Assembly (NCBI GenBank): GCA_944388755.1
Contig: CALXJY010000006.1
Span: forward strand, 1 to 56,679
Source of the DNA: an uncultured Clostridia bacterium
GTDB lineage: Bacteria; Bacillota; Clostridia; TANB77; CAG-508
DNA length: 56,679 bases
Reading direction: 5' to 3'
Below the pieces are notes generated by a model. The model was not told the DNA's origin. It did no database searches and saw nothing but the letters and a program-made list of their open reading frames with translations. Of the stretch, positions 8,776 through 56,679 are shown piece after piece. Position 1 is the first letter of the stretch; every line of letters starts with the position of its first letter. Made by a program: the position numbers and the translations under genes.

Positions 8776-9154
8776 TTAAAGTAAGCAATTTAATTCTTTT
8801 TTTACATCTTCCAAGATATGTGCTATTTTTTTATCTGAATATTCTTTTTGTATTTTACTTATTTCTAGTAAAGCTTTATTTATTTTCTTTTCTTGTTTTA
8901 ATGTCCTTTCCATAAATGTAAGCTTTTCTTCGTACTGGAAAAGTTTTTTCTCTCCTTTCTTTATTATATCTCTTACTGCTTGTCTTGTTATATTGTTATT
9001 TTCTGCTATTTCAGATAGAGATAAATCATTATTGCAGTAATCATTTATGAATTCATATTGTTTTCCGAGTTAGTAGTTTTCCATAATATTCACATAATAA
9101 GCTCATTGTTATTTTATTTTGTAATTCATTATTCTCTTCTTTTTTTTCACTCAT
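8776..9154 (-). pseudogene. ylxM: ylxM, SRP-associated helix-turn-helix protein, frameshifted
   Basis: YlxM family proteins bind near Ffh and regulate the SRP pathway. From the ATG at 9154 the frame reads MSEKKEENNELQNKITMSLL, then CEYYGKLLTRKTI and stops. One base less restores KQYEFINDYCNNDLSLSEIA, ITRQAVRDIIKKGEKKLFQY and an end at 8776, which is the full YlxM pattern. The extra base is either an A in the run at 9061-9064 or the C in ACTCGGAA just before it. Position upstream of ffh supports identity. A real mutation or an assembly error could explain it. Confidence 0.85.
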
Positions 9155-9270
9155 AAATTTTTACCTCTTTTTTTGTAATGCAAATATACTTTACACTATA
9201 TTTTTAGTTTTGTCAAGTGTTTTTTGAAATATCATCTATTTTTTTTGATTTTTTGTAGTTATAATTTTGA

Positions 9271-9948
9271 TTAAGATACCTCTTTTGCATTAGAATATAT
9301 TTCTTTTAATTTTGAATCAGGATAATATTTATCAAAAAATATGTCAATCTCTCCTTTAGGTTGTATGTTTTTTCTTCTCTCTAAGTGTCTTATTCCGGCT
9401 AAACCTGAAATAGTAATATCAAATATAATAAATATGGCACATAAGACTGTAATAATTTTAAAAGTTTTATATTTATATCCAATATCTAATTTATTTATAT
9501 GTGGAAGTATATATTTTATAAACAATATTCCTCCAATGCCCCAATATATACAATGTAATAAGCTTGTCCTACCATTTATGTTTAATGGTAGATTTTTATA
9601 ATCCCAAGATATAGTTCCAAACCAGGTTTCTTGCATGTAAGAAAATACATATTCTATTATTCCTCCTAGTAACATCGTTATAAAAAATATCTTTGTATAA
9701 TTCTTCTTTTTTATGTTTGAAATAACTAAATAATATGCTACAAGCCCTACACCATATACTTGTATAAATGGTCCAAACAATAGTCCTTGCCTTGATACGT
9801 AATGGTTATTTTGCACTAATCCTACAATTGTTTCAATAATATATCCTAAAACACTACCAATTATAAATATCCAAAAAATTTTTGTAATTTTTTGGAGTAT
9901 TCCTTGTTTATCTGTTTCTATAATGTTTAGACTTTCTACTTTTTTCAT
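9271..9948 (-). CDS. CmpB-type putative ABC transporter membrane protein (PF06541-like)
   Basis: The 225-residue integral membrane protein has about five hydrophobic segments. It contains motifs typical of the family once called putative ABC-transporter type IV: GYIIETI, SRQGLLFGPFIQVYGVG, GGIIEYVFSYMQETWFG and WDYKNLPLNINGR. No ATPase partner is adjacent, and the biochemical role of the family is not established. It stands alone between larC and ylxM, with its own ribosome site (GAGGTG). Confidence 0.75.
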   Translation of the reverse strand: MKKVESLNIIETDKQGILQKITKIFWIFIIGSVLGYIIETIVGLVQNNHYVSRQGLLFGPFIQVYGVGLVAYYLVISNIKKKNYTKIFFITMLLGGIIEYVFSYMQETWFGTISWDYKNLPLNINGRTSLLHCIYWGIGGILFIKYILPHINKLDIGYKYKTFKIITVLCAIFIIFDITISGLAGIRHLERRKNIQPKGEIDIFFDKYYPDSKLKEIYSNAKEVS

Positions 9949-10052
9949 TTTTTACACCTCAAAATTATTATAATATTAGTTTCTTATAATTATTTTGAGT
10001 CTTTCTTAATTTTCTATGAATTTTATTTTCATTTGTAATTTTCTTTCGGTAT

Positions 10053-11261
10053 TTAGATATTTTTAAATTCTTCTAACTTATATAATTCTTTTAAAGGAAT
10101 ATTATTTTTTTCAGCTAGTTCTTTTATACTCTCATATTCAGGATAAATATATATTTTGCCATTACTTGTTACTTTTTTTGCTTTTAATTTACCATATTTA
10201 GTATCTATTTCTATTAATTCTCTTTCAAGTTCTGTACGAAATTCAAAGCAATACCTAATTCCTATTGTTGTAGTTTCTCTAAACATTATATTTTGTAATT
10301 TGTATATATCTTCTTTTTTACAAGCAACTGTTAATTTATACGCTGGTCTTCCTTTTTTCATAAAAATTGGTGTGTAAAATACGTCTAATGCTCCGTTTTG
10401 AAATAATTTTTCACAAGTATATCCTAATATTTCTCCAGAGCAGTCATCTACATTTGTTTCCATTATAACAAAATTTTCATTTGGTTTTTCCATATCTCCA
10501 TAATATACTTTTAATATATTCGGAATTTTTAAATCTTTATAACCTGCTCCCCAACCTATTTTTTCTGTTGTCATTACAGGTAAAGTTGTAAATTCATCTG
10601 CAAGTTCTGCTATAATTGCTGCACCTGTTGGTGTAACTAATTCTGTATCAACATCTATTTGTCTAAATTTAACACTTGCTCCTGCAAAAATTTCACTTGT
10701 TGCAGGTACTGGAACTGACATAATTCCATGGGCACATTCTATAAAGCCATATCCGTCATTTACAACACTAGAAATAATCTTATTTGGATTTATCTTCTTA
10801 ATTAAAATTGCTGTTCCTACAATATCTACAATTGAATCTATTGCTCCTACTTCGTGAAAATGTACTTCATTTAATGGTTTATTATGAACTTTACTTTCTG
10901 CTTTTGCTACTCTTAAAAATATTCTTTTTGCTAAATTTTTTACATCATCATTTAAAGAACTTTCATCAATTATTTTATTAACATCATCTAAATTTCTATG
11001 CTCGTGATGATGGTGTTCGTGGTAATGCTCATGTTCTTCATGTTCATGGTCGTGATGATGTTCGTGTTCTAAAATTACATCAACATAAGTACCTGTTATT
11101 CCGTTTTTTACTTTTTTAGAAATTTCTATTTTATAACCATCAACATTTAATTTTTTTAATTCATTTATCAAGTAATTATTATCACCTATTATTTCTGTTA
11201 ATGCTCCAAGTGCCATGTTTCCACTAATACCACTTGAACAGTCAAAGTATAATATTTTCAA
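10053..11261 (-). CDS. larC: LarC, nickel insertion protein for nickel-pincer cofactor
   Basis: LarC inserts nickel into the pyridinium-dithiocarboxylate precursor to make the NPN cofactor of LarA-type racemases. The 402-residue chain starts ILYFDCSSGISGNMALGAL and includes AHGIMSVPVPATSEIF and FVIMETNVDDCSGEILGY. Residues 65-90 are a histidine-rich stretch suited to nickel binding. The frame is continuous, unlike the Lactobacillus gene, where LarC1 and LarC2 are joined by frameshifting. It starts with TTG at 11261, seven bases after AGGGGG, and lies 1 nt beyond the DUF362 stop. No larA, larB or larE is in this window. Confidence 0.92.
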   Translation of the reverse strand: MKILYFDCSSGISGNMALGALTEIIGDNNYLINELKKLNVDGYKIEISKKVKNGITGTYVDVILEHEHHHDHEHEEHEHYHEHHHHEHRNLDDVNKIIDESSLNDDVKNLAKRIFLRVAKAESKVHNKPLNEVHFHEVGAIDSIVDIVGTAILIKKINPNKIISSVVNDGYGFIECAHGIMSVPVPATSEIFAGASVKFRQIDVDTELVTPTGAAIIAELADEFTTLPVMTTEKIGWGAGYKDLKIPNILKVYYGDMEKPNENFVIMETNVDDCSGEILGYTCEKLFQNGALDVFYTPIFMKKGRPAYKLTVACKKEDIYKLQNIMFRETTTIGIRYCFEFRTELERELIEIDTKYGKLKAKKVTSNGKIYIYPEYESIKELAEKNNIPLKELYKLEEFKNI

Positions 11262-11262
11262 A

Positions 11263-12147
11263 TTAATCCCCCTTTATTAATTCATATTCTCTTGTTCCAA
11301 TTCCTAGTTCTGTTGCTGCTTCTACTGTATGAACACCATGTAAAGATTCTATTCTTTTTATTAAAATGTCTTTTCCTGGATCTTCTGAATTATACACAAG
11401 ATCTAAACAAGCCTGGTCTATTGCAACTGGATCTAATGATGCTAAAATTCCTATATCTTTCATACATGGTAGCGATGCATTTCCATCACAATCACAGTCT
11501 TTTGATATATTTTTCATAACATTTATAAATGCTATATTTCCTTTAAAATAGTTTACGACTGATTCTGCTGCATCTGCCATTGCCTCTAAAAATCTGTCTT
11601 GTTCTGGCAAATTGTCAAATAATTTAGTTTGGTCATCTGTTGCTCCAGCAGTATGAATTAAAGTTTTTCCTGCTGATGAACCACATCCTATAGATAATTG
11701 TTTTAATGCTCCACCATAACCTCCCATTGCGTGTCCTTTAAAATGTGACAATACAAGCATTGAATCATAATTTTCTAAATTTTTTCCAACATAATTTTTC
11801 TTTAAAACTTTTCCATTTGGAATATCTAATACCAAATCAGGTCCTTCTCTATCTAATAAATCAAAATTAAAATATTTGTCCCATTCATGTTCTTTGATAA
11901 GTTGTAAATGTTTTTCTGTATGGTTTCTTGCTCCCTCATATGCTGTATTACATTCTACAACTGTTCCCTTAACATAATCAACCATATCTTTTACAAATTC
12001 TGGTCTTAAATAATTTTGGTTTCCTTTTTCTCCTGAATGCATTTTTACTGCAACTTTTCCTGGTAATTCTTTACCTAGTGTTTTAAACATTTTTACAATA
12101 TTTTTTGGTGTGATTTCCTTACTAAAATAAACTTTTGATTTTTCCAT
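11263..12147 (-). CDS. DUF362 family protein
   Basis: The 294-residue protein begins MEKSKVYFSKEITPKNIVK; AAGGAGG precedes the ATG at 12147. Landmarks of DUF362 include GKVAVKMHSGEKGN, VLSHFKGHAMGGYGGALKQL and ASLDPVAIDQACLDLV. Many members carry a 4Fe-4S ferredoxin insert; this one has only a short Cys cluster (KDCDCDGNASLPC), which could still bind metal. The biochemical function of the family is unsettled. Coupling to larC (1-nt gap) and following a flavodoxin suggests a redox or metal-related task. No signal peptide. Confidence 0.8.
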   Translation of the reverse strand: MEKSKVYFSKEITPKNIVKMFKTLGKELPGKVAVKMHSGEKGNQNYLRPEFVKDMVDYVKGTVVECNTAYEGARNHTEKHLQLIKEHEWDKYFNFDLLDREGPDLVLDIPNGKVLKKNYVGKNLENYDSMLVLSHFKGHAMGGYGGALKQLSIGCGSSAGKTLIHTAGATDDQTKLFDNLPEQDRFLEAMADAAESVVNYFKGNIAFINVMKNISKDCDCDGNASLPCMKDIGILASLDPVAIDQACLDLVYNSEDPGKDILIKRIESLHGVHTVEAATELGIGTREYELIKGD

Positions 12148-12167
12148 AATCAATTCCTCCTTAAAAA

Positions 12168-12635
12168 TTAATTTATCCAATTTGTTAAATCTTCGTCATT
12201 TTCTCTTCCTGTTAATCTTTTTCCCTCTTTCCAATTATAGCTTGGATATGTTTTTCTTAAATCATTTTCAGCATAACTCATACCTGAACCACCTGAAGTA
12301 CAAAATGGTATTAATGTTTTTCCTGTAAAATCTTTGCTTTCAATAAAAGTATTTACAATTGTTGGGCAGACTCCCCACCAAATAGGAAATCCTATTAAAA
12401 TAGTGTCATAACTACTTATATCTAAACTATTTTCTTTCATTTTTGGTCTAAAAGTTTTATTCTGCATCTCGATTGATGACCTACTTTGTTTATTTGTCCA
12501 GTCTAAATCTTCTGATGTATATTTTTGTATTGGCTCAATTTCAAATAAATCCCCATTAACTGCTTTTGCAATTTTTTCTGCAACTCTTTTTGTGACACCA
12601 CTTGCTGAAAAGTAACTTACTAAAACTTTGCTCAT
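12168..12635 (-). CDS. Soluble flavodoxin
   Basis: A 155-residue flavodoxin-fold protein that should bind FMN and carry electrons in the cytosol. The phosphate loop is SYFSASGVTKRVAEKIAKA and the flavin-contacting loops are IGFPIWWGVCPTIV and PFCTSGGSGMSYAENDLRK. These are typical of the longer Flavodoxin_4 family, which often accompanies quinone or azo-type reductases. It is followed 20 nt later by the DUF362 gene. The same fold occurs in the membrane-anchored protein at 13604-14320. Confidence 0.88.
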   Translation of the reverse strand: MSKVLVSYFSASGVTKRVAEKIAKAVNGDLFEIEPIQKYTSEDLDWTNKQSRSSIEMQNKTFRPKMKENSLDISSYDTILIGFPIWWGVCPTIVNTFIESKDFTGKTLIPFCTSGGSGMSYAENDLRKTYPSYNWKEGKRLTGRENDEDLTNWIN

Positions 12636-12663
12636 TATAAATTCCCCCCATCTTAAAATAGAA

Positions 12664-12960
12664 TTAATTTTCCTTTTCTACAAATTGCTCTACTCTCATA
12701 CGAAGATGATATTTATCTCTTAATTTTGCTATTTCTTTCATCATAGGAGATTTATGATGTTCATCTAATGCTTCCTTGCTTTCCCATCTATCTATTAAAA
12801 GGAGTGTTTCTGGATCATCCATTGGAAAGAAATAGTTATATCTTAAATTTCCTTTTTCAGCTCTTACTCTACCTACTATTCCACTTGAAACCATTTCTTC
12901 TGCAAATTCTTTAGCTGTTCCATTTTCTCCTGTATAATATATATTAATTGTTAAACTCAT
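12664..12960 (-). CDS. ABM-domain (antibiotic biosynthesis monooxygenase) protein
   Basis: The 98-residue protein has the short ferredoxin-like ABM fold: MSLTINIYYTGENGTAKEFA, then YNYFFPMDDPETLLLIDRWE and DEHHKSPMMKEIAKLRDKYH. The ATG at 12960 follows GAGGGATTTAAT; a longer frame to 13011 overlaps the preceding gene. ABM proteins include quinol monooxygenases and haem-degrading enzymes as well as members with no known reaction. Its place among flavin and haem genes fits a small-molecule redox role, which is an inference. Confidence 0.8.
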   Translation of the reverse strand: MSLTINIYYTGENGTAKEFAEEMVSSGIVGRVRAEKGNLRYNYFFPMDDPETLLLIDRWESKEALDEHHKSPMMKEIAKLRDKYHLRMRVEQFVEKEN

Positions 12961-12976
12961 ATTAAATCCCTCTTTT

Positions 12977-13579
12977 CTAATTAACTTTTTCGATAGTAAC
13001 TTCAAAATCATTATTCATATTTTCAAATATTTCTGTTCCACTTTCTATAGTTCCTAATTTATATAAGGAATTTGAATACCTAAAATCTTTATAAAACACT
13101 GATATATTTCCCCAAGGGGCATAATATGCAAAATCTCCTGTTTCTGGAGTATAACCAGAAGGTTGTCCTTCTGTACTTAGTTCATTTGGCAAGGTTGCAA
13201 TTTTTTCCGTACTATTAAAATCTTCAAATGTTAGTGTTAAAGGTAGCATTTCTAAAAAATCTCGACTTGCTTGATTATCTTCTAACTTTACAAATACTTC
13301 TTCATTTCCATTTACAGTTAATTTAATTCTTACATTTTCCAAAATTTCTTCATCTCCTTGAATTTGTGTATTTTGCTCTGTGCTTTCATTGTTGTTTTCT
13401 GTATTATTTTCTATACTACCAGTTAATAAATTTTGAGTATTTACATTTTGTTTTTCTCTTTGAATTAATATATCTTCTTGCCTTCCGAAATTATATACTA
13501 TTAAACCTATTATAATACCAACGATAATTACTACTAAAATTATTGCTATTGATACTGTTTTCTTATTTATTCTTTTCAT
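12977..13579 (-). CDS. Membrane-anchored cyclophilin-like domain protein
   Basis: Residues 8-29 form one transmembrane helix. A 45-residue linker rich in Asn, Gln and Glu follows, then a cyclophilin-like barrel from about residue 82: IKLTVNGNEEVFVKLEDN, LPLTLTFEDFN, GQPSGYTPETGDFAYYAPWG. This family usually occurs beside flavodoxins and reductases and has no proven isomerase activity. The anchor and linker mirror those of the flavodoxin at 13604-14320 and the fragment at 16301-16612. With Lys and Arg before the helix, the domain is predicted to face outside. Confidence 0.82.
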   Translation of the reverse strand: MKRINKKTVSIAIILVVIIVGIIIGLIVYNFGRQEDILIQREKQNVNTQNLLTGSIENNTENNNESTEQNTQIQGDEEILENVRIKLTVNGNEEVFVKLEDNQASRDFLEMLPLTLTFEDFNSTEKIATLPNELSTEGQPSGYTPETGDFAYYAPWGNISVFYKDFRYSNSLYKLGTIESGTEIFENMNNDFEVTIEKVN

Positions 13580-13603
13580 ACTTTATTACTTCCTTATTAC
13601 CTA

Positions 13604-14320
13604 TTAAAAACCAATTTGAGATAACCAATTATTTACTGTGCTTTGTGAATTTCTGCTACTACTTCCACTTACTGCTAGTCCTTCTGTTACTGTTGCATTT
13701 GGTTCTTCATTTTGTATTGTTCGTGGTGTCCCAGAAAGTCCTGATCCTCCTGATGTGCAGAATGGTGCTATTGTTTTTCCTGATAAATCATACTCATCTA
13801 AAAATGAATATATAATCATTGGCATATCTCCCCACCAATTTGGATAACCTAAGAAAATTGTGTCATATTCATCAATATTATCAATTTGAGTAGCAATTTC
13901 TGGTCTTGCATCATTTCTTTGTTCTTCTTGTGCTACATCTAATAATGTATTATAGTCATCTATATATGCATTTACTGGCTCTAATTTTATAATATCTCCA
14001 CCTACTGCTTCATGTATGAAATGTGCAACATTTTCAGTATTTCCTGTGTGTGAAAAATATACAACTAATGTTCTTCCTGTTTCTTCTATTTGTGGTTCTT
14101 CGTTTGTAACTTCATTTGAGTTTGACACAGCATTTTGATTCATATTATTTTCATCTCCTGCATTTTCTAAATTTGTAGAATTTTGTTCTACATTATTTCT
14201 TGTTTTGTTTGTATTTGCCAATTCTTGATTATTATTATTTGAAGTAACCATATAAGCTATTATTCCTAATATTGCAAGTATTATTATTGCAACAATTAAA
14301 ACTACTATTTTTTTATTCAT
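13604..14320 (-). CDS. Membrane-anchored flavodoxin
   Basis: The N-terminus is a single helix (MNKKIVVLIVAIIILAILG). An Asn/Glu-rich linker runs to about residue 82, then comes a complete flavodoxin domain: VVYFSHTGNTENVAHFIHEA, FLGYPNWWGDMPMIIYSF and PFCTSGGSGLSGTPR. Flavodoxins are normally cytosolic; the positive N-terminus ahead of the helix predicts that this one lies outside the membrane. It would then need exported FMN and an electron donor in the membrane, for which the nearby DUF4405 protein is a candidate. Topology is inferred, not seen. Confidence 0.85.
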   Translation of the reverse strand: MNKKIVVLIVAIIILAILGIIAYMVTSNNNNQELANTNKTRNNVEQNSTNLENAGDENNMNQNAVSNSNEVTNEEPQIEETGRTLVVYFSHTGNTENVAHFIHEAVGGDIIKLEPVNAYIDDYNTLLDVAQEEQRNDARPEIATQIDNIDEYDTIFLGYPNWWGDMPMIIYSFLDEYDLSGKTIAPFCTSGGSGLSGTPRTIQNEEPNATVTEGLAVSGSSSRNSQSTVNNWLSQIGF

Positions 14321-14333
14321 CCTATTTTTCCTC

Positions 14334-14759
14334 CTAACCTAACTTATTGTATTCCTCATCAGTAACTTCTTCACACCACTCATTTTTTGTATCTTCTCCT
14401 GGTACTTCTATTGCAATATGTGAAAACCAACTGTCTTTTTTTGCGCCGTGCCAATGTTTTACATTTGCAGGAATTACTATTACTTTTCCTGGCTCTAAAC
14501 TTACTGCTTCTTTTCCTTCTTCTTGATACCAGCCATGACCTGCTGTGCATATTAAAATTTGTCCTCCATTTTTACTTGCGTGATGTATATGCCAATTATT
14601 TCTACAGCCTGGCTCAAATGTTACATTTGCTAAAAATATTGGACTTGTATTATCTACTAATGGATTTAGATAACTATTTCCTACAAAATACTTAGCAAAC
14701 GCATCATTTGGATTACCCTTTCCGAACATATTTACTTTTTCAAATTCTTTTTCTTCCAT
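14334..14759 (-). CDS. Cupin-domain protein
   Basis: A 141-residue single-domain cupin. Metal-binding motif one contains NWHIHHASKNGGQ (His57, His59 and a downstream Gln), and motif two contains PANVKHWHG (His102 or His104). Cupins of this type accompany carboxymuconolactone decarboxylase-like proteins, as here, where the CMD gene is 34 nt upstream. The reaction is not known. A good AAAGGAG site precedes the ATG. Confidence 0.88.
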   Translation of the reverse strand: MEEKEFEKVNMFGKGNPNDAFAKYFVGNSYLNPLVDNTSPIFLANVTFEPGCRNNWHIHHASKNGGQILICTAGHGWYQEEGKEAVSLEPGKVIVIPANVKHWHGAKKDSWFSHIAIEVPGEDTKNEWCEEVTDEEYNKLG

Positions 14760-14792
14760 AATCTACATTCTCCTTTTCTTATTTTAAATTTT

Positions 14793-15539
14793 TTATTCTG
14801 GTATTACTTGATTGATACAACTAATTGCATTTAAACTTCTTGGATAACCTATATAAGGCAAAAGTGCTGTTACTGTATTTAATAATGTTTGCTTATCATT
14901 TCCCACATTTACATTTCCTACAATATGCCCTTTTACTTGTGGCTCACAACCACCTTGTGATATTAGTATTGAAAATGTAATTAACTCTCTTTTTTTAACA
15001 TCTAAACCATTTCTTGTATAGAAATCACCAAAACAGTTATCTGATAAGAATTTTTGTATATGCACTTGATTCTTTGGAGAATTTTTATAATTGTTATCTA
15101 TTGTTTCTCCAAATATTGATTTTTGTACTTCTAGTCCTTTATCAAATCTATCTTCTATTGTAGTTGTTCCTTGCTTTTCTAATGGTAATTCAATTCCTCT
15201 TTCTTTAAAAATTCTATTTGTAGGTTCTAATAAATCTAAAACTTTTAAAATACCAACATAAGGAACTGATTGATATAGAATTTCTTTAATTTCAACTGGT
15301 GATACTCCGACATTTAATGCTGAATTTACAAATACTTCATACATCTTTTTTGTTTGTGTAGCAATAGTTGCTGCTAGTATTACCATTTGTCTTGTTCTTT
15401 TATCCAAATTGTCTTGTTCTTGTGCTTCATCTAGAGCAAAATTTAAAACAATTTCTTTTAGTTCCTCATCTTCCTTACTAAATTCAATATTTTTAAATAA
15501 TTCTTCGTAATTTTCAATTGCTTTTTTTGTAACACTCAT
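14793..15539 (-). CDS. Carboxymuconolactone decarboxylase family protein, two domains
   Basis: The 248-residue protein consists of two tandem CMD/AhpD-like helical domains (about residues 30-115 and 140-240). The second has QGGCEPQVKGHIVGNVNVG, with a single Cys where peroxidase-type AhpD proteins have a CxxC pair; the first lacks Cys at that site. Classical AhpD chemistry is therefore unlikely. Paralogues are found with cupins and flavodoxins in anaerobes, as in this cluster. The ATG follows AAAGGAGG. Confidence 0.87.
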   Translation of the reverse strand: MSVTKKAIENYEELFKNIEFSKEDEELKEIVLNFALDEAQEQDNLDKRTRQMVILAATIATQTKKMYEVFVNSALNVGVSPVEIKEILYQSVPYVGILKVLDLLEPTNRIFKERGIELPLEKQGTTTIEDRFDKGLEVQKSIFGETIDNNYKNSPKNQVHIQKFLSDNCFGDFYTRNGLDVKKRELITFSILISQGGCEPQVKGHIVGNVNVGNDKQTLLNTVTALLPYIGYPRSLNAISCINQVIPE

Positions 15540-15543
15540 TGTT

Positions 15544-16317
15544 TTAAACCTCCTTTACATTATTTTTATTTTTTACCTTCTTTATCAAATTGAAGATAAT
15601 ATAAATAATAAGTGAAATTGCAAGTAAAATTGCTATATATTTTAAATAAAATGATCTTGTACTTTGTTCATAGTCAAAAAACTTAAAGTCTACCAATAAA
15701 AACATTTCTTCCCATAATCGTAATGATATAAATGAATATATACCAAAACATATTAAAAGTAATAATATAAAATAATATACATATTCAAATGTACTATTTT
15801 TCATTTTTGTATTTAATTCATTCATTATTCCTGTTATATGAAGTCCTACATGAATTGCCATTAGCACAAATCCCCACGAAGTCGAAATCATGTGCAAACT
15901 TCTTCCAAACATAGTTGTTTTAATATTTAAAAATTCAAATACATCTGATGAAATCATTATTCCACTTATCATCATTCCTATCATTGCTATAAACAGCAAA
16001 AGATTTATAACAATGTGGAATATCCTTTGAAAATTGTGTTTTCCCTTAAATATGCTCTTATACCATTTTATATTTAAAATATTATGTATGATAAATAATA
16101 CAAATGTTATTGTTCCTAGTATTTCGTGAACTGTATTATCTGTATTGTCTGCATTTCTTACCACTCTAAAACCTATATTATTCATCTTTTGAGTTGGTGT
16201 TGTTGAAGCTCTATATGCTGACCTTAAATGTTTTGCATAATCATTCCAACTTCCACCTCTATTCACTTTTAATGTCCCAGTTTCTGCTCCAGTAGGGTTA
16301 TTAGTATTTTTCTCCAT
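15544..16317 (-). CDS. SUMF1-like tail fused to DUF4405 haem membrane domain
   Basis: Residues 1-55 are the end of a formylglycine-generating-enzyme-like (SUMF1) domain: NRGGSWNDYAKHLRSAYRAS and MNNIGFRVVRNA. From residue 60 there are about five transmembrane helices with the DUF4405 pattern: VHEILG, FIIHNILN, GRSLHMISTSW and MAIHVGLHITGI, where the His residues are likely haem b ligands. DUF4405 proteins are associated with electron transfer across the membrane. The two active-site Cys of true FGE are absent. There is no proper ribosome site before this ATG. The frame is best read as the second half of a broken gene whose first half is 16301-16612. Confidence 0.75.
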   Translation of the reverse strand: MEKNTNNPTGAETGTLKVNRGGSWNDYAKHLRSAYRASTTPTQKMNNIGFRVVRNADNTDNTVHEILGTITFVLFIIHNILNIKWYKSIFKGKHNFQRIFHIVINLLLFIAMIGMMISGIMISSDVFEFLNIKTTMFGRSLHMISTSWGFVLMAIHVGLHITGIMNELNTKMKNSTFEYVYYFILLLLICFGIYSFISLRLWEEMFLLVDFKFFDYEQSTRSFYLKYIAILLAISLIIYIIFNLIKKVKNKNNVKEV

Positions 16318-16612
16318 ACTCTTTTTGGCTTACTTCTGTCGCTGAAATATAAAAGTCATTTACTGTAACTTCGTGTTGTACTTCATCTGTTTCTCTTTGC
16401 ATTTCATCTTCTAGACTTCCCATTTGGAAAGTATCACCATTAATTAGTATCATGCCATTGGTCTGTTGTACATTTGAATTATTATTCTGTACTTGGCTTA
16501 TATTGTTATTGTTGTTTTCATTATCATTTTGTAAATATATTGCAAATACAATACCAGCAATTACAATAAAAATAATTATTGCAATTATTAATGCGATTAC
16601 TTTTTTATTCAT
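16301..16612 (-). pseudogene. N-terminal half of the broken SUMF1-DUF4405 gene
   Basis: The 103-residue frame has a strong ribosome site (TTTGGAGG), a membrane anchor (MNKKVIALIIAIIIFIVIAG), an Asn/Gln linker, and then the start of a SUMF1 domain: MILINGDTFQMGS, VTVNDFYISATEVSQKEYG. It stops just as the domain begins. The end of the domain continues in another frame at 16317. The two frames overlap, so about 170 central codons of the usual SUMF1 domain are missing and the frame has also changed. The original product was presumably anchor, SUMF1 domain and DUF4405 in one chain. Confidence 0.78.
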
Positions 16613-16657
16613 AATCTTCCCTCCAAATATATATTTTTTAAATTTTAAAAACTAAAA

Positions 16658-17191
16658 TTATTTAATTTTTTTGCCTAACTCATACGCTTCTTTATAAAAA
16701 TGTTCTGGTATCATACCTACTGTGCCACAACCCTTTCCTATAATCATACCTTCATCTTTATAATTCATATAATTTACTAATTTTTTATAATGTACAATTA
16801 ATGGTTCTACTGTGGAATTATCTGTATTCCAACAAGTCATTATATAAGCTGTTTTTAATCTTTTTCTACTTATTCTACCTGTTCGTGAATAAAATCTATC
16901 AATAGTCGCTTTTAAGGTAGCTGTCATAGCAAAATAGTATACTGGTGTTGCAAATACTAACATATCTGCATCTTCTATATTATCTAAAATTTTTATCATA
17001 TCATCTTGAAATACACAGTCGCCATCCATACCACAATGGTTACAACCAATACAAGGATGAATATTTAAGTGTGCTGTATCAAACCTTACAATTTCATTTC
17101 CGTTTTCTTTTGCACCTTTTATAAATTCATCTACTAATGTATTAGATGTTCCGTGTAAATTATAACTTCCTGTTAATATCACTATTTTCAT
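16658..17191 (-). CDS. NAD(P)H-dependent FMN reductase / flavodoxin-like oxidoreductase
   Basis: A 177-residue flavodoxin-fold reductase: LTGSYNLHGTSNTLVDEF (phosphate loop) and ATPVYYFAMTATLKATIDRF (flavin loop). The short CIGCNHCGMDGDC motif between them is common in iron-sulfur flavoproteins and related reductases, and it could bind metal or form disulfides. It is probably a cytosolic donor of reducing power for the cluster. It is the first gene after the TetR regulator, 22 nt away, with an ACAGGAGG site. Confidence 0.87.
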   Translation of the reverse strand: MKIVILTGSYNLHGTSNTLVDEFIKGAKENGNEIVRFDTAHLNIHPCIGCNHCGMDGDCVFQDDMIKILDNIEDADMLVFATPVYYFAMTATLKATIDRFYSRTGRISRKRLKTAYIMTCWNTDNSTVEPLIVHYKKLVNYMNYKDEGMIIGKGCGTVGMIPEHFYKEAYELGKKIK

Positions 17192-17213
17192 TGTTTCAAA
17201 CCTCCTGTAAAAT

Positions 17214-17825
17214 TTATTTTAATAATTTTAATAATCCATTATAAGTAATTTCATATATAGTTTGGAACTTAAACGGTACTTTTGCTTTTTCCATTGCTTC
17301 CTTTTGTTTTTCTGTTACTTCAGCATAAGGGTATATGCCATACATAAATGGGAAAAATGAAAATATGAATTTGTCTTTTTCCTCTTCTGACATATCTTTA
17401 AAAAATTTATCAATACATTTTCTTACCATTTCTACTGATCTACCATAAGCTGTTTTAAATTTTATTAATTCTTCTATTCTACTGTTTTCTTCCATATCAT
17501 ACATATTCATTGAAAGTAACTTTAATAGATTTTTTCTTTTTTCTATGGTTTTGGCTAATTTATCAGCAAAACTTTCTTTTGTTAGTTCTTCATTTTTACT
17601 ATACAATTCCTCTAAATCTTTTATCCAGTTTTCATATTCTTTTTTAAAAAGTGCTAAAAATATTTCTTCTTTTGTTTGGAAATAATAGTATATAGAAGTT
17701 CTTGAAAACTTTCCTTGCTCTCCAATTCCTTTTATTGTAATGTCTTTAAAACTTGTTTCTTTATAAAGTTCCTCACAAGCCTTAATAATTTCTTCTTTCT
17801 TATCTTCTCCTATTTCACTATTCAT
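17214..17825 (-). CDS. TetR-family regulator
   Basis: A 203-residue regulator with the N-terminal TetR helix-turn-helix (DITIKGIGEQGKFSRTSIYY, YFQTKEEIFLALF) and a helical ligand-binding C-terminus. It is first in the leftward redox cluster and has an AAAAGGAGG site. Two matching 15-bp palindromes at 17842-17856 and 17882-17896 flank its promoter, strong evidence for autoregulation and control of the cluster. The inducer is unknown; a quinone, nitro compound or other electrophile would fit the neighbours. Confidence 0.92.
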   Translation of the reverse strand: MNSEIGEDKKEEIIKACEELYKETSFKDITIKGIGEQGKFSRTSIYYYFQTKEEIFLALFKKEYENWIKDLEELYSKNEELTKESFADKLAKTIEKRKNLLKLLSMNMYDMEENSRIEELIKFKTAYGRSVEMVRKCIDKFFKDMSEEEKDKFIFSFFPFMYGIYPYAEVTEKQKEAMEKAKVPFKFQTIYEITYNGLLKLLK

Positions 17826-42244: not shown

Positions 42245-42530
42245 TTTTATTATGCAACAAAAAATCCATTTAATCCTGTTATATAGGACGAAATGGATTT
42301 TATATTCGTGGTACCACCTATTTTTATTAGTATATATTATAACTAACCTCATTACAGCTTTAACGGGCTTACCCGCTTTCTCCTACTTTCATTTTCAGAG
42401 AATGACCAAAAAAGTGAAATTTCAATTAATTATTACAAAATGGCTTCCAGCCTTGACCATTTTCTCTTGTTTGTAATTTTTAATTAATTTACTTTGCTTT
42501 TTTATTGGTTTAACTATATTGTTATCTATT
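42245..42530 (-). promoter_or_regulatory. T-box riboswitch for pheST
   Basis: Read leftwards, the T-box sequence AGGTGGTACCACG (42319-42307) precedes a strong terminator, AAATCCATTT pairing with AAATGGATTT and a T-run (42302-42259). Stem I lies upstream, around 42400-42500. In its 3' side, GAAATTTCAC offers UUC as the specifier codon, which pairs with tRNA-Phe and fits the downstream genes. Uncharged tRNA-Phe would stabilise the antiterminator. The 5' end is approximate; the promoter was not placed. Confidence 0.93.
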
Positions 42531-56194: not shown

Positions 56195-56270
56195 TGGCTC
56201 CTCTTGTTGGACTCGAACCAACGACCTATCGGTTAACAGCCGAGCGCTCTACCAACTGAGCTAAAGAGGA
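56195..56270 (-). tRNA. tRNA-Asn (anticodon GTT)
   Basis: The 76-nt cloverleaf has the acceptor stem TCCTCTT pairing with AAGAGGA, discriminator G and an encoded CCA. The anticodon loop CTGTTAA gives GTT, and the T loop contains GGTTCGAGTCC. It follows 5S rRNA by about 14 nt in the same operon. Confidence 0.97.
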
Positions 56271-56283
56271 ATTTATATTAAAT

Positions 56284-56397
56284 TTGGCAACAACCTATCT
56301 TCCCAGCAGGGTAACCCGCAAGTATTTTCGGCACATTTAGGCTTGACTTCTGTGTTCGGGATGGGAACAGGTATTACCCTAAATGTCATCGTCACCA
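56284..56397 (-). rRNA. rrf: 5S ribosomal RNA
   Basis: Read leftwards, the sequence begins GGTGACGATGACATTTAGGG and contains the conserved core CACCTGTTCCCATCCCGAAC in the form ACCTGTTCCCATCCCGAACA, then AGAAGTCAAGC and GCCGAAAATACTTG. It ends pairing GGCAAC with the 5' region. Ends are estimated to within a few bases. Confidence 0.94.
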
Positions 56398-56578
56398 AAA
56401 AATTATAGACTTTTTAATGTTCTTCTTTGTACTTTGTTATTATACTATATTAAATATAATATTGCAAGTACTTTTTAATATTTTTATTAATTATTTTATA
56501 ATTTACTATTTAAAGCACACTCAAAAATACATAGATGAATATTTTGTAGTTTTAGGTCCATTTCCACAAAATTATAGT

Positions 56579-56679
56579 GGTTAAGCCCTCGATTTATTAG
56601 TTTTGGTCAGCTTAATATATCACTATACTTACACCTCCAACCTATCTACCATGTCGTCTTCATGGAATCTTACTACCTT
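56579..56679 (-). rRNA. rrl: 23S ribosomal RNA, 3' end (truncated by window)
   Basis: Only the last 100 or so bases are in the window. Read leftwards they include GGTAGATAGGTTGGAGGTGT, AGCTGACCAAAACTAATAAA and TCGAGGGCTTAACC, the conserved 23S terminus in Firmicutes. The 180-nt spacer to 5S (56398-56578) contains no tRNA. Confidence 0.94.

Follow-up and report, generated by a model that had tools for sequence, protein, structure and literature searches.

What would supply electrons to a flavodoxin held outside a bacterial membrane, and how would such a protein keep its flavin? The question is raised by a gene cluster on a contig of an uncultured Clostridia bacterium (CALXJY010000006.1), which was analysed over its whole length of 56,679 nucleotides and is called the window below; the assembly that holds it amounts to 1.52 Mb in 64 contigs, with a completeness of 97.7% and a contamination of 1.6%. 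The cluster is a leftward run of 12 open reading frames (ORFs), from a TetR-family regulator to LarC, with gaps of -35 to 45 bases, which bears out the TetR-headed, closely spaced run seen in a preliminary description of this DNA. That description proposed that a membrane haem protein of the DUF4405 family donates electrons to an anchored flavodoxin on the outer side. We see about an even chance that DUF4405 does pass electrons across the membrane to an outside, anchored flavodoxin with non-covalently held FMN, and that in the window two deletions have cut away the start and helix 1 of the cytochrome together with a flavodoxin fused to an FGE-like domain.

Anchored flavodoxins and their link to DUF4405

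We searched 55 genomes, the window's own and 54 relatives. The DUF4405 ORF was matched in 9 of them and the anchored flavodoxin in 33, some of these through the anchor only. Fifteen regions were fetched from the relatives and seven hold DUF4405 (G001, G009, G015, G027, G032, G041 and G052), all seven with a flavodoxin bearing an anchor or a lipobox close by. The N-terminus of the G022 flavodoxin is ambiguous, and a weak DUF4405 match in G011 was left out of this reading. A second set comprises 28 DUF4405 loci, one genome per species, scanned with two peptide patterns, so that distant DUF4405 proteins were missed; their records are named Clostridia, Bacilli, Erysipelotrichaceae, Muribaculaceae, Ruminococcus flavefaciens, Candidatus Pelethosoma, Clostridium sp. 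and Brachyspira. The two sets overlap by four, G001, G009, G027 and G052 being taken as the same genomes as L067, L071, L064 and L074.

In 21 of the 28 loci, a Flavodoxin_4 with an anchor, with a lipobox or in fused form is found no more than 6.5 kb away from DUF4405; chance would give about 3%, a rough guess that assumes some three anchored flavodoxins per 1.5 Mb genome. Split by DUF4405 frame, the count is 21 of 25 loci for frames of at least 200 residues (that of L085, interrupted by masked bases, is counted as full length) and none of three for fragments (L072, L082 and L086). Among the full-length loci, four are exceptions: L059, L076 and L077, which are near a contig end, and L080, which is not. 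The fragment loci had raised the idea of a joint loss of both genes, which we dropped, as anchored flavodoxins persist in G015 and in the window, where DUF4405 is broken. The anchored cyclophilin-like gene, also expected to be linked, accompanies DUF4405 at the same distance in 20 of the 28 loci, with an anchor or a lipobox.

Fusions tie these proteins more closely. In L078 (5735-7165), DUF4405, a further helix, a linker and Flavodoxin_4 share one frame of 476 residues. The record of L078 is named Muribaculaceae; its DUF4405, flavodoxin and cyclophilin-like genes resemble those of L081, a Ruminococcus flavefaciens metagenome-assembled genome (MAG) of the same project, so the bin name may be wrong. 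Fusions of an FGE-like domain with a flavodoxin (484-498 residues) adjoin DUF4405 in L062, L063, L071, L083 and the Brachyspira loci L084 (8363-9832) and L085 (8362-9831). In G009 such an anchor-FGE-like-flavodoxin protein, of 490 residues, is encoded immediately upstream of a complete DUF4405 gene; its counterpart in G027 (351 residues) lacks part of the FGE-like domain, and in G001 the same fusion is split over two frames. The DUF4405-flavodoxin and FGE-like-flavodoxin fusions are single proteins suited to testing the proposed chain. Another kind of fusion occurs in L081 (7045-8577), where cyclophilin-like, flavodoxin and cyclophilin-like domains form one anchored protein of 510 residues; it adjoins lipobox versions with single domains and an ApbE-like ORF.

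On which side of the membrane is the flavodoxin? We assigned N-terminal classes with a home-made hydropathy and lipobox rule. The layout previously noted, a short positive start, one helix, an Asn/Gln/Glu-rich linker and a domain, is confirmed for the anchored flavodoxin and the anchored cyclophilin-like protein. In the AlphaFold model of the latter, residues 6-52 form an N-terminal helix, confidence is low over residues 38-76, and a confidently modelled domain begins at about residue 84. An N-terminal hydrophobic anchor is present in 119 of the best 120 flavodoxin homologues out of 6624. A lipobox replaces it in L049 and L081, and the G041 flavodoxins start with the lipoboxes LCAC and LVAC, which would place the flavodoxin domain outside; a 358-residue flavodoxin of L081, classed as soluble owing to its upstream-extended frame, also carries a lipobox-like stretch. 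The anchored flavodoxin is therefore likely to lie outside the membrane, to judge from these N-termini. The earlier prediction of an extracytoplasmic flavodoxin agrees with the predicted side and with the lipobox relatives, but its view that this would be unusual does not hold, since such flavodoxins have been published (PMC11334425, in its accessible part).

The flavodoxins of this cluster seem to lack the means for covalent flavin attachment. Insert presence was read by eye from the alignment rows, and a regular expression for the flavinylation motif was run on every row. The window's anchored flavodoxin scores 107.7 bits against PF12682 (cut-off 24) and has no flavinylation insert after strand 1; neither insert nor motif is found in the 23 anchored flavodoxins of 19 loci (24 before L085 7235-7777 was dropped as a spurious transmembrane call). 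The only proteins with both insert and flavinylation-like motif are four from L078 and L081, loci whose genomes have ApbE. No match to ApbE (PF02424) turned up anywhere in the window genome or in 54 of the 55 genomes of the relatives search, and 5 of the 28 locus genomes have one (L076, L078, L081, L084 and L085); 17 of the 19 genomes with plain anchored flavodoxins have no ApbE match. The solved structures closest to the window flavodoxin are 4j8p, 4ici and 3klb, the last being a non-covalent reference in the accessible part of PMC11334425. If outside flavodoxins do without insert and ApbE, then either the covalent bond is dispensable or the flavin is borrowed from the surroundings.

Haem, electrons and partner domains

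DUF4405 is predicted to be a membrane cytochrome. The model of an intact homologue (P0121) has six long helices with a mean pLDDT of 89, and five histidines (H30, H44, H108, H122 and H126) are invariant in 38 DUF4405 sequences. H30 and H44 lie in helix 2, H108 and H122 in helix 4, each pair 14 residues apart (H-X13-H). The spacing of the two pairs fits two stacked haems, which the protein would hold.

Where would haem and electrons come from? UbiA and ferrochelatase were searched for in the window genome and in 22 of the 28 locus genomes (the set less L072, L076, L077, L082, L085 and L086). UbiA was found neither in the window genome nor in 20 of the 22, with 14 of 14 controls positive, and ferrochelatase neither in the window genome nor in 21 of the 22, with 8 of 14 controls positive. 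Most genomes that keep DUF4405 (the 22 searched, L059-L084, and G000) show neither enzyme, and thus look like haem auxotrophs without a quinone of their own. Since no ferrochelatase was found, haem would be taken up from outside, unless it is made by a siroheme-based route. A conserved cytochrome in genomes where neither the quinone prenyltransferase nor ferrochelatase is found would point to haem scavenging for the sake of electron export. Quinol as donor in this lineage is not supported (UbiA in none of one own genome and 2 of 22), nor is an Rnf or Nqr complex in the window genome, where NQR2/RnfD was not found (0 of 1). Because UbiA was not found, a cytosolic flavoprotein would be the donor rather than quinol. 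Candidates are the flavoprotein encoded next to the regulator, which has a homologue within 6.5 kb of DUF4405 in 17 of the 28 loci, the cytosolic flavodoxin, or the flavin reductase present at that distance in 16 of the 28.

The two remaining domains look like binding domains. The model of the window's cyclophilin-like protein is closest to TM1367 (1zx8), AF2241 and the Pictet-Spenglerase KslB, and a sequence search of the PDB with this protein gave nothing at E 0.1. By sequence, the FGE-like domain of the intact fusion is closest to TvpA of T. denticola. In an intact relative it has no cysteine at the aligned stretch that we take to be the FGE active site, and a role as a sulfatase-activating enzyme was rejected for this reason. 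These domains would hold the substrate for the flavodoxin, as suggested by the fusion of both to flavodoxins.

Taken together, the chain would start with a cytosolic flavoprotein giving electrons to DUF4405, whose scavenged haem would carry them across the membrane to the outside anchored flavodoxin; this would receive them on its non-covalently held FMN and act on a substrate held by the cyclophilin-like or FGE-like domain. The wider picture, that haem-auxotrophic, quinone-free gut bacteria export electrons in this way to outside flavodoxins tethered to cyclophilin-like or lectin-fold (FGE-like) substrate-holding domains, and need neither ApbE nor quinone, is put forward tentatively, as the less probable part of our proposal.

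A broken fusion gene and a truncated DUF4405 gene

The preliminary description counted a third anchored protein with the layout above (16301-16612). We reject it as a free-standing gene: after the anchor it holds positions 2-49 of the 255 of PF03781 (the FGE-sulfatase profile of Pfam), about the first fifth of the FGE-like domain, while the last fifth, positions 204-255, begins the ORF that follows (15544-16317), read in a different frame, and runs on into DUF4405. Read from these matches, this is one gene reduced to its two ends; the preliminary description mentions neither the FGE-like domain nor the break. In relatives with the intact form, the anchor, the FGE-like domain and the flavodoxin make up one fusion protein, and a six-helix DUF4405 gene comes next. 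In blastn alignments with L062, L063, L071 and L083, the match to the window breaks off and picks up again at two places, 16310 and 16129-16143. Compared with L063, the first junction lacks about 458 bases (8816 to 9274) and the second about 632 (9441 to 10073), and the second loss took the fused flavodoxin domain as well as the start and helix 1 of DUF4405.

Is the truncated cytochrome still made? Its ATG at 16317 has no Shine-Dalgarno-like stretch, where 9 of the 11 other listed starts have one; the stretch is weak for the cyclophilin-like gene, and the listed starts of the ABM and DUF362 genes, which are doubtful, have none. In the alignment, however, every invariant histidine is retained, and dN/dS against five relatives is 0.15-0.22, versus 0.16-0.24 for pairs of intact relatives (n = 6). 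Such similar values imply that the deletion is recent or that the product is still useful. The window copy would be a deletion derivative that may be inactive, and the intact chain would belong to the relatives.

The same gene is hit by other losses or frame changes in L059, L061, L064 and L067, and the locus seems prone to loss. Many differing deletions and fusions, at short shared sequences, affect the FGE-like-flavodoxin gene and the genes around it in close relatives (window 16144-16317, L059 9621-9953, L064 8925-9980, L067 8114-8419, and proteins P0002, P0012 and P0118), and a 110-residue ORF of L059 is stitched from three cluster genes. Flavodoxin and cyclophilin-like domains are joined in four database proteins (P0002, P0012, P0013 and P0118), which look like products of in-frame losses.

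Do these observations require a chain between DUF4405 and the flavodoxin? The outside flavodoxin and the cyclophilin-like protein could instead be a reductase and its binding protein, fed with electrons by free extracellular flavin; DUF4405 would then serve another purpose such as metal reduction. We find this doubtful, but a number of results point its way and weigh against our own proposal. The link is not obligate, since flavodoxins with an anchor or a lipobox also occur in seven of the eight regions that do not hold DUF4405; the co-occurrence expected from the preliminary description stands for 7 of 7 regions and 21 of 28 loci without being general. In G015, DUF4405 is broken in two and the anchored flavodoxin is kept, as in the window; because of these two cases the flavodoxin may have other donors. 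L080, read over 10 kb on each side, has a full DUF4405 and no flavodoxin nearer to it than 6.5 kb. Other results bear on the cytochrome and the flavin. The DUF4405 model gave no Foldseek match at E <= 0.001 and no clear match to a cytochrome; Foldseek and VIA-align returned ion channels and helix bundles with tied scores, and cytochrome b6f (7r0w) stood at rank 50. The two Brachyspira genomes (L084 and L085) have plain flavodoxins, with ApbE elsewhere in the genome. Since most of the genomes are MAGs, a gene that is not found may simply lie in a gap. In the window genome as assembled, the proposed donor has no ribosome-binding site, start or first helix, and the chain may for this reason fail there. 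What speaks for transfer from DUF4405 to the flavodoxin is their linkage in 21 of the 25 loci with a long DUF4405 frame and the L078 fusion of the two.

Two further explanations concern the side of the membrane and the break. That this is an ordinary redox-stress operon under TetR control, its flavodoxins tethered on the cytosolic face of the membrane, would suit the CMD, cupin, ABM, aldo/keto reductase and flavin reductase neighbours, which are typical of such operons. We consider it very improbable, given the positive residues before the helix and the linker after it, the existence of lipobox orthologues, and the L078 flavodoxin, which follows a seventh helix preceded by a strongly positive loop. 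An assembly chimera, covering a real strain with an intact FGE-like-flavodoxin gene and DUF4405, is unlikely in our view, even though the break is known from the assembly alone and the 257-residue ORF is not seen as the window's own protein among the best 120 of 452 matches, whereas the flavodoxin and cyclophilin-like proteins are seen among their own matches (clustering at 90% could hide it). Against a chimera, the window shares only a few bases at the junctions with both parents as seen in relatives, L059, L061, L064 and L067 carry different deletions or frame changes at the same gene, and what remains of DUF4405 is an open frame continuous with the FGE-like tail.

Cluster inventory and known systems

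The features of the cluster are collected in Table 1. Pfam supports the labels given earlier to the LarC, DUF362, ABM, Cyclophil_like2, cupin, CMD, DUF4405 and both Flavodoxin_4 proteins; for the flavin reductase label, FMN reductase matches exist, but all fall below the NCBIfam cut-offs, and from its Cx2Cx2Cx5C motif we take the protein to be an iron-sulphur flavoprotein. Judging from homologues, the true starts are probably 12960 rather than 13011 for ABM and 12147 rather than 12180 for DUF362. In the same 6.5 kb around DUF4405, 20 of the 28 loci have a TetR-like gene and 5 have DUF362; LarC was seen in none, and is for that reason probably a bystander. A promoter scan gave 57 hits, on a par with the 54.4 expected from shuffles. 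Elsewhere in the window, on the minus strand, are a T-box leader above the Rfam gathering score (42281-42514) and the end of an rRNA operon (56198-56679), with a partial 23S, 5S and a tRNA.

Table 1. Genes, remnants and deletion junctions of the cluster, from its regulator to its last gene
Feature	Position	Strand	Basis
TetR-family regulator at head of run	17214..17825	-	NCBIfam TetR models, below cut-off
Cytosolic flavoprotein, Cx2Cx2Cx5C	16658..17191	-	FMN reductase matches below NCBIfam cut-offs
Remnant: anchor and first part of FGE-like domain	16301..16612	-	PF03781 positions 2-49 of 255
Deletion junction 1	16309..16310	-	blastn against L063; same place against L062, L071, L083
Remnant: last part of FGE-like domain, in frame with DUF4405	16144..16317	-	PF03781 positions 204-255; alignment
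Deletion junction 2	16129..16143	-	blastn against L063; alignment
DUF4405 membrane cytochrome (predicted), helices 2-6 of 6	15544..16143	-	PF14358 E 6.7e-13; alignment; P0121 model
CMD protein, two-domain	14793..15539	-	PF02627 E 6.2e-26
Cupin	14334..14759	-	PF07883; nearest named model mandelonitrile lyase NF049940, 120/140 bits, below cut-off
Anchored Flavodoxin_4, without flavinylation insert	13604..14320	-	PF12682 E 5.1e-31; nearest solved 4j8p, 4ici, 3klb
Anchored cyclophilin-like domain protein	12977..13579	-	PF18050 E 2.7e-38; model near TM1367 1zx8
ABM-domain protein, revised start	12664..12960	-	PF03992; starts of homologues
Cytosolic Flavodoxin_4, without N-terminal helix	12168..12635	-	PF12682 E 1.1e-65
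DUF362 protein, revised start	11263..12147	-	PF04015; homologue start in L056
LarC	10053..11261	-	PF01969, TIGR00299

How does this cluster compare with known systems? The closest is that of Huang, Meheust, Barquera and Light (2024, PMC11334425). According to the accessible part of that article, a DUF4405 protein binds haem b, Flavodoxin_4 proteins with an insert after strand 1 are flavinylated by ApbE and their genes cluster with DUF4405, extracytosolic flavodoxins show signs of flavinylation whereas cytosolic ones do not, and the bonding is proposed to prevent flavin loss outside the cell. Here too a DUF4405 gene with conserved histidines adjoins an extracytosolic Flavodoxin_4, whose location is predicted, and the proposed electron path leads outwards. 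DUF4405 as membrane electron donor, as suggested in the preliminary description, fits the relatives and the L078 fusion; as far as the accessible text goes it was already in print, and the window's own copy is truncated. In contrast to the published system, the window genome has no ApbE match and its flavodoxin has neither insert nor flavinylation motif, and a term search of the accessible text of PMC11334425 found neither FGE-like-flavodoxin fusions nor cyclophilin-like partners. In the literature covered, which leaves out most subscription journals, 8 papers mention DUF4405 and 4 mention it together with flavodoxin; we found no description there of this arrangement, of the operon genes together or of a cyclophilin-like (PF18050) protein with a flavodoxin.

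The haem donors of the MsrQ and PepSY type (PMC11334425 and PMC8238504, both in their accessible parts) resemble DUF4405 in having six helices and paired histidines, and DUF4405 would likewise serve an outside partner; they belong to another family, however, and MsrQ is described as quinone-binding, whereas UbiA was found here in 2 of 22 genomes. A secretion system of archaea includes a membrane-anchored protein, from a different family, whose flavodoxin-like domain is extracellular (PMC5898192, accessible part). FGE/SUMF1 and T. denticola TvpA (2y3c) match the FGE-like domain of the intact fusion in fold, by sequence; unlike them, this domain has no cysteine at the aligned site and is anchored and fused to a flavodoxin. 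TM1367 (1zx8), an atypical cyclophilin, is the closest solved fold to the cyclophilin-like model, but the protein in this cluster is anchored, and its kind adjoins flavodoxins or is fused with them. On sequence grounds, the system would be of the same kind as the published DUF4405-Flavodoxin_4 pair, minus the covalent step; the novelty lies in a variant that lacks ApbE and probably quinone, would use scavenged haem and shows telling fusions.

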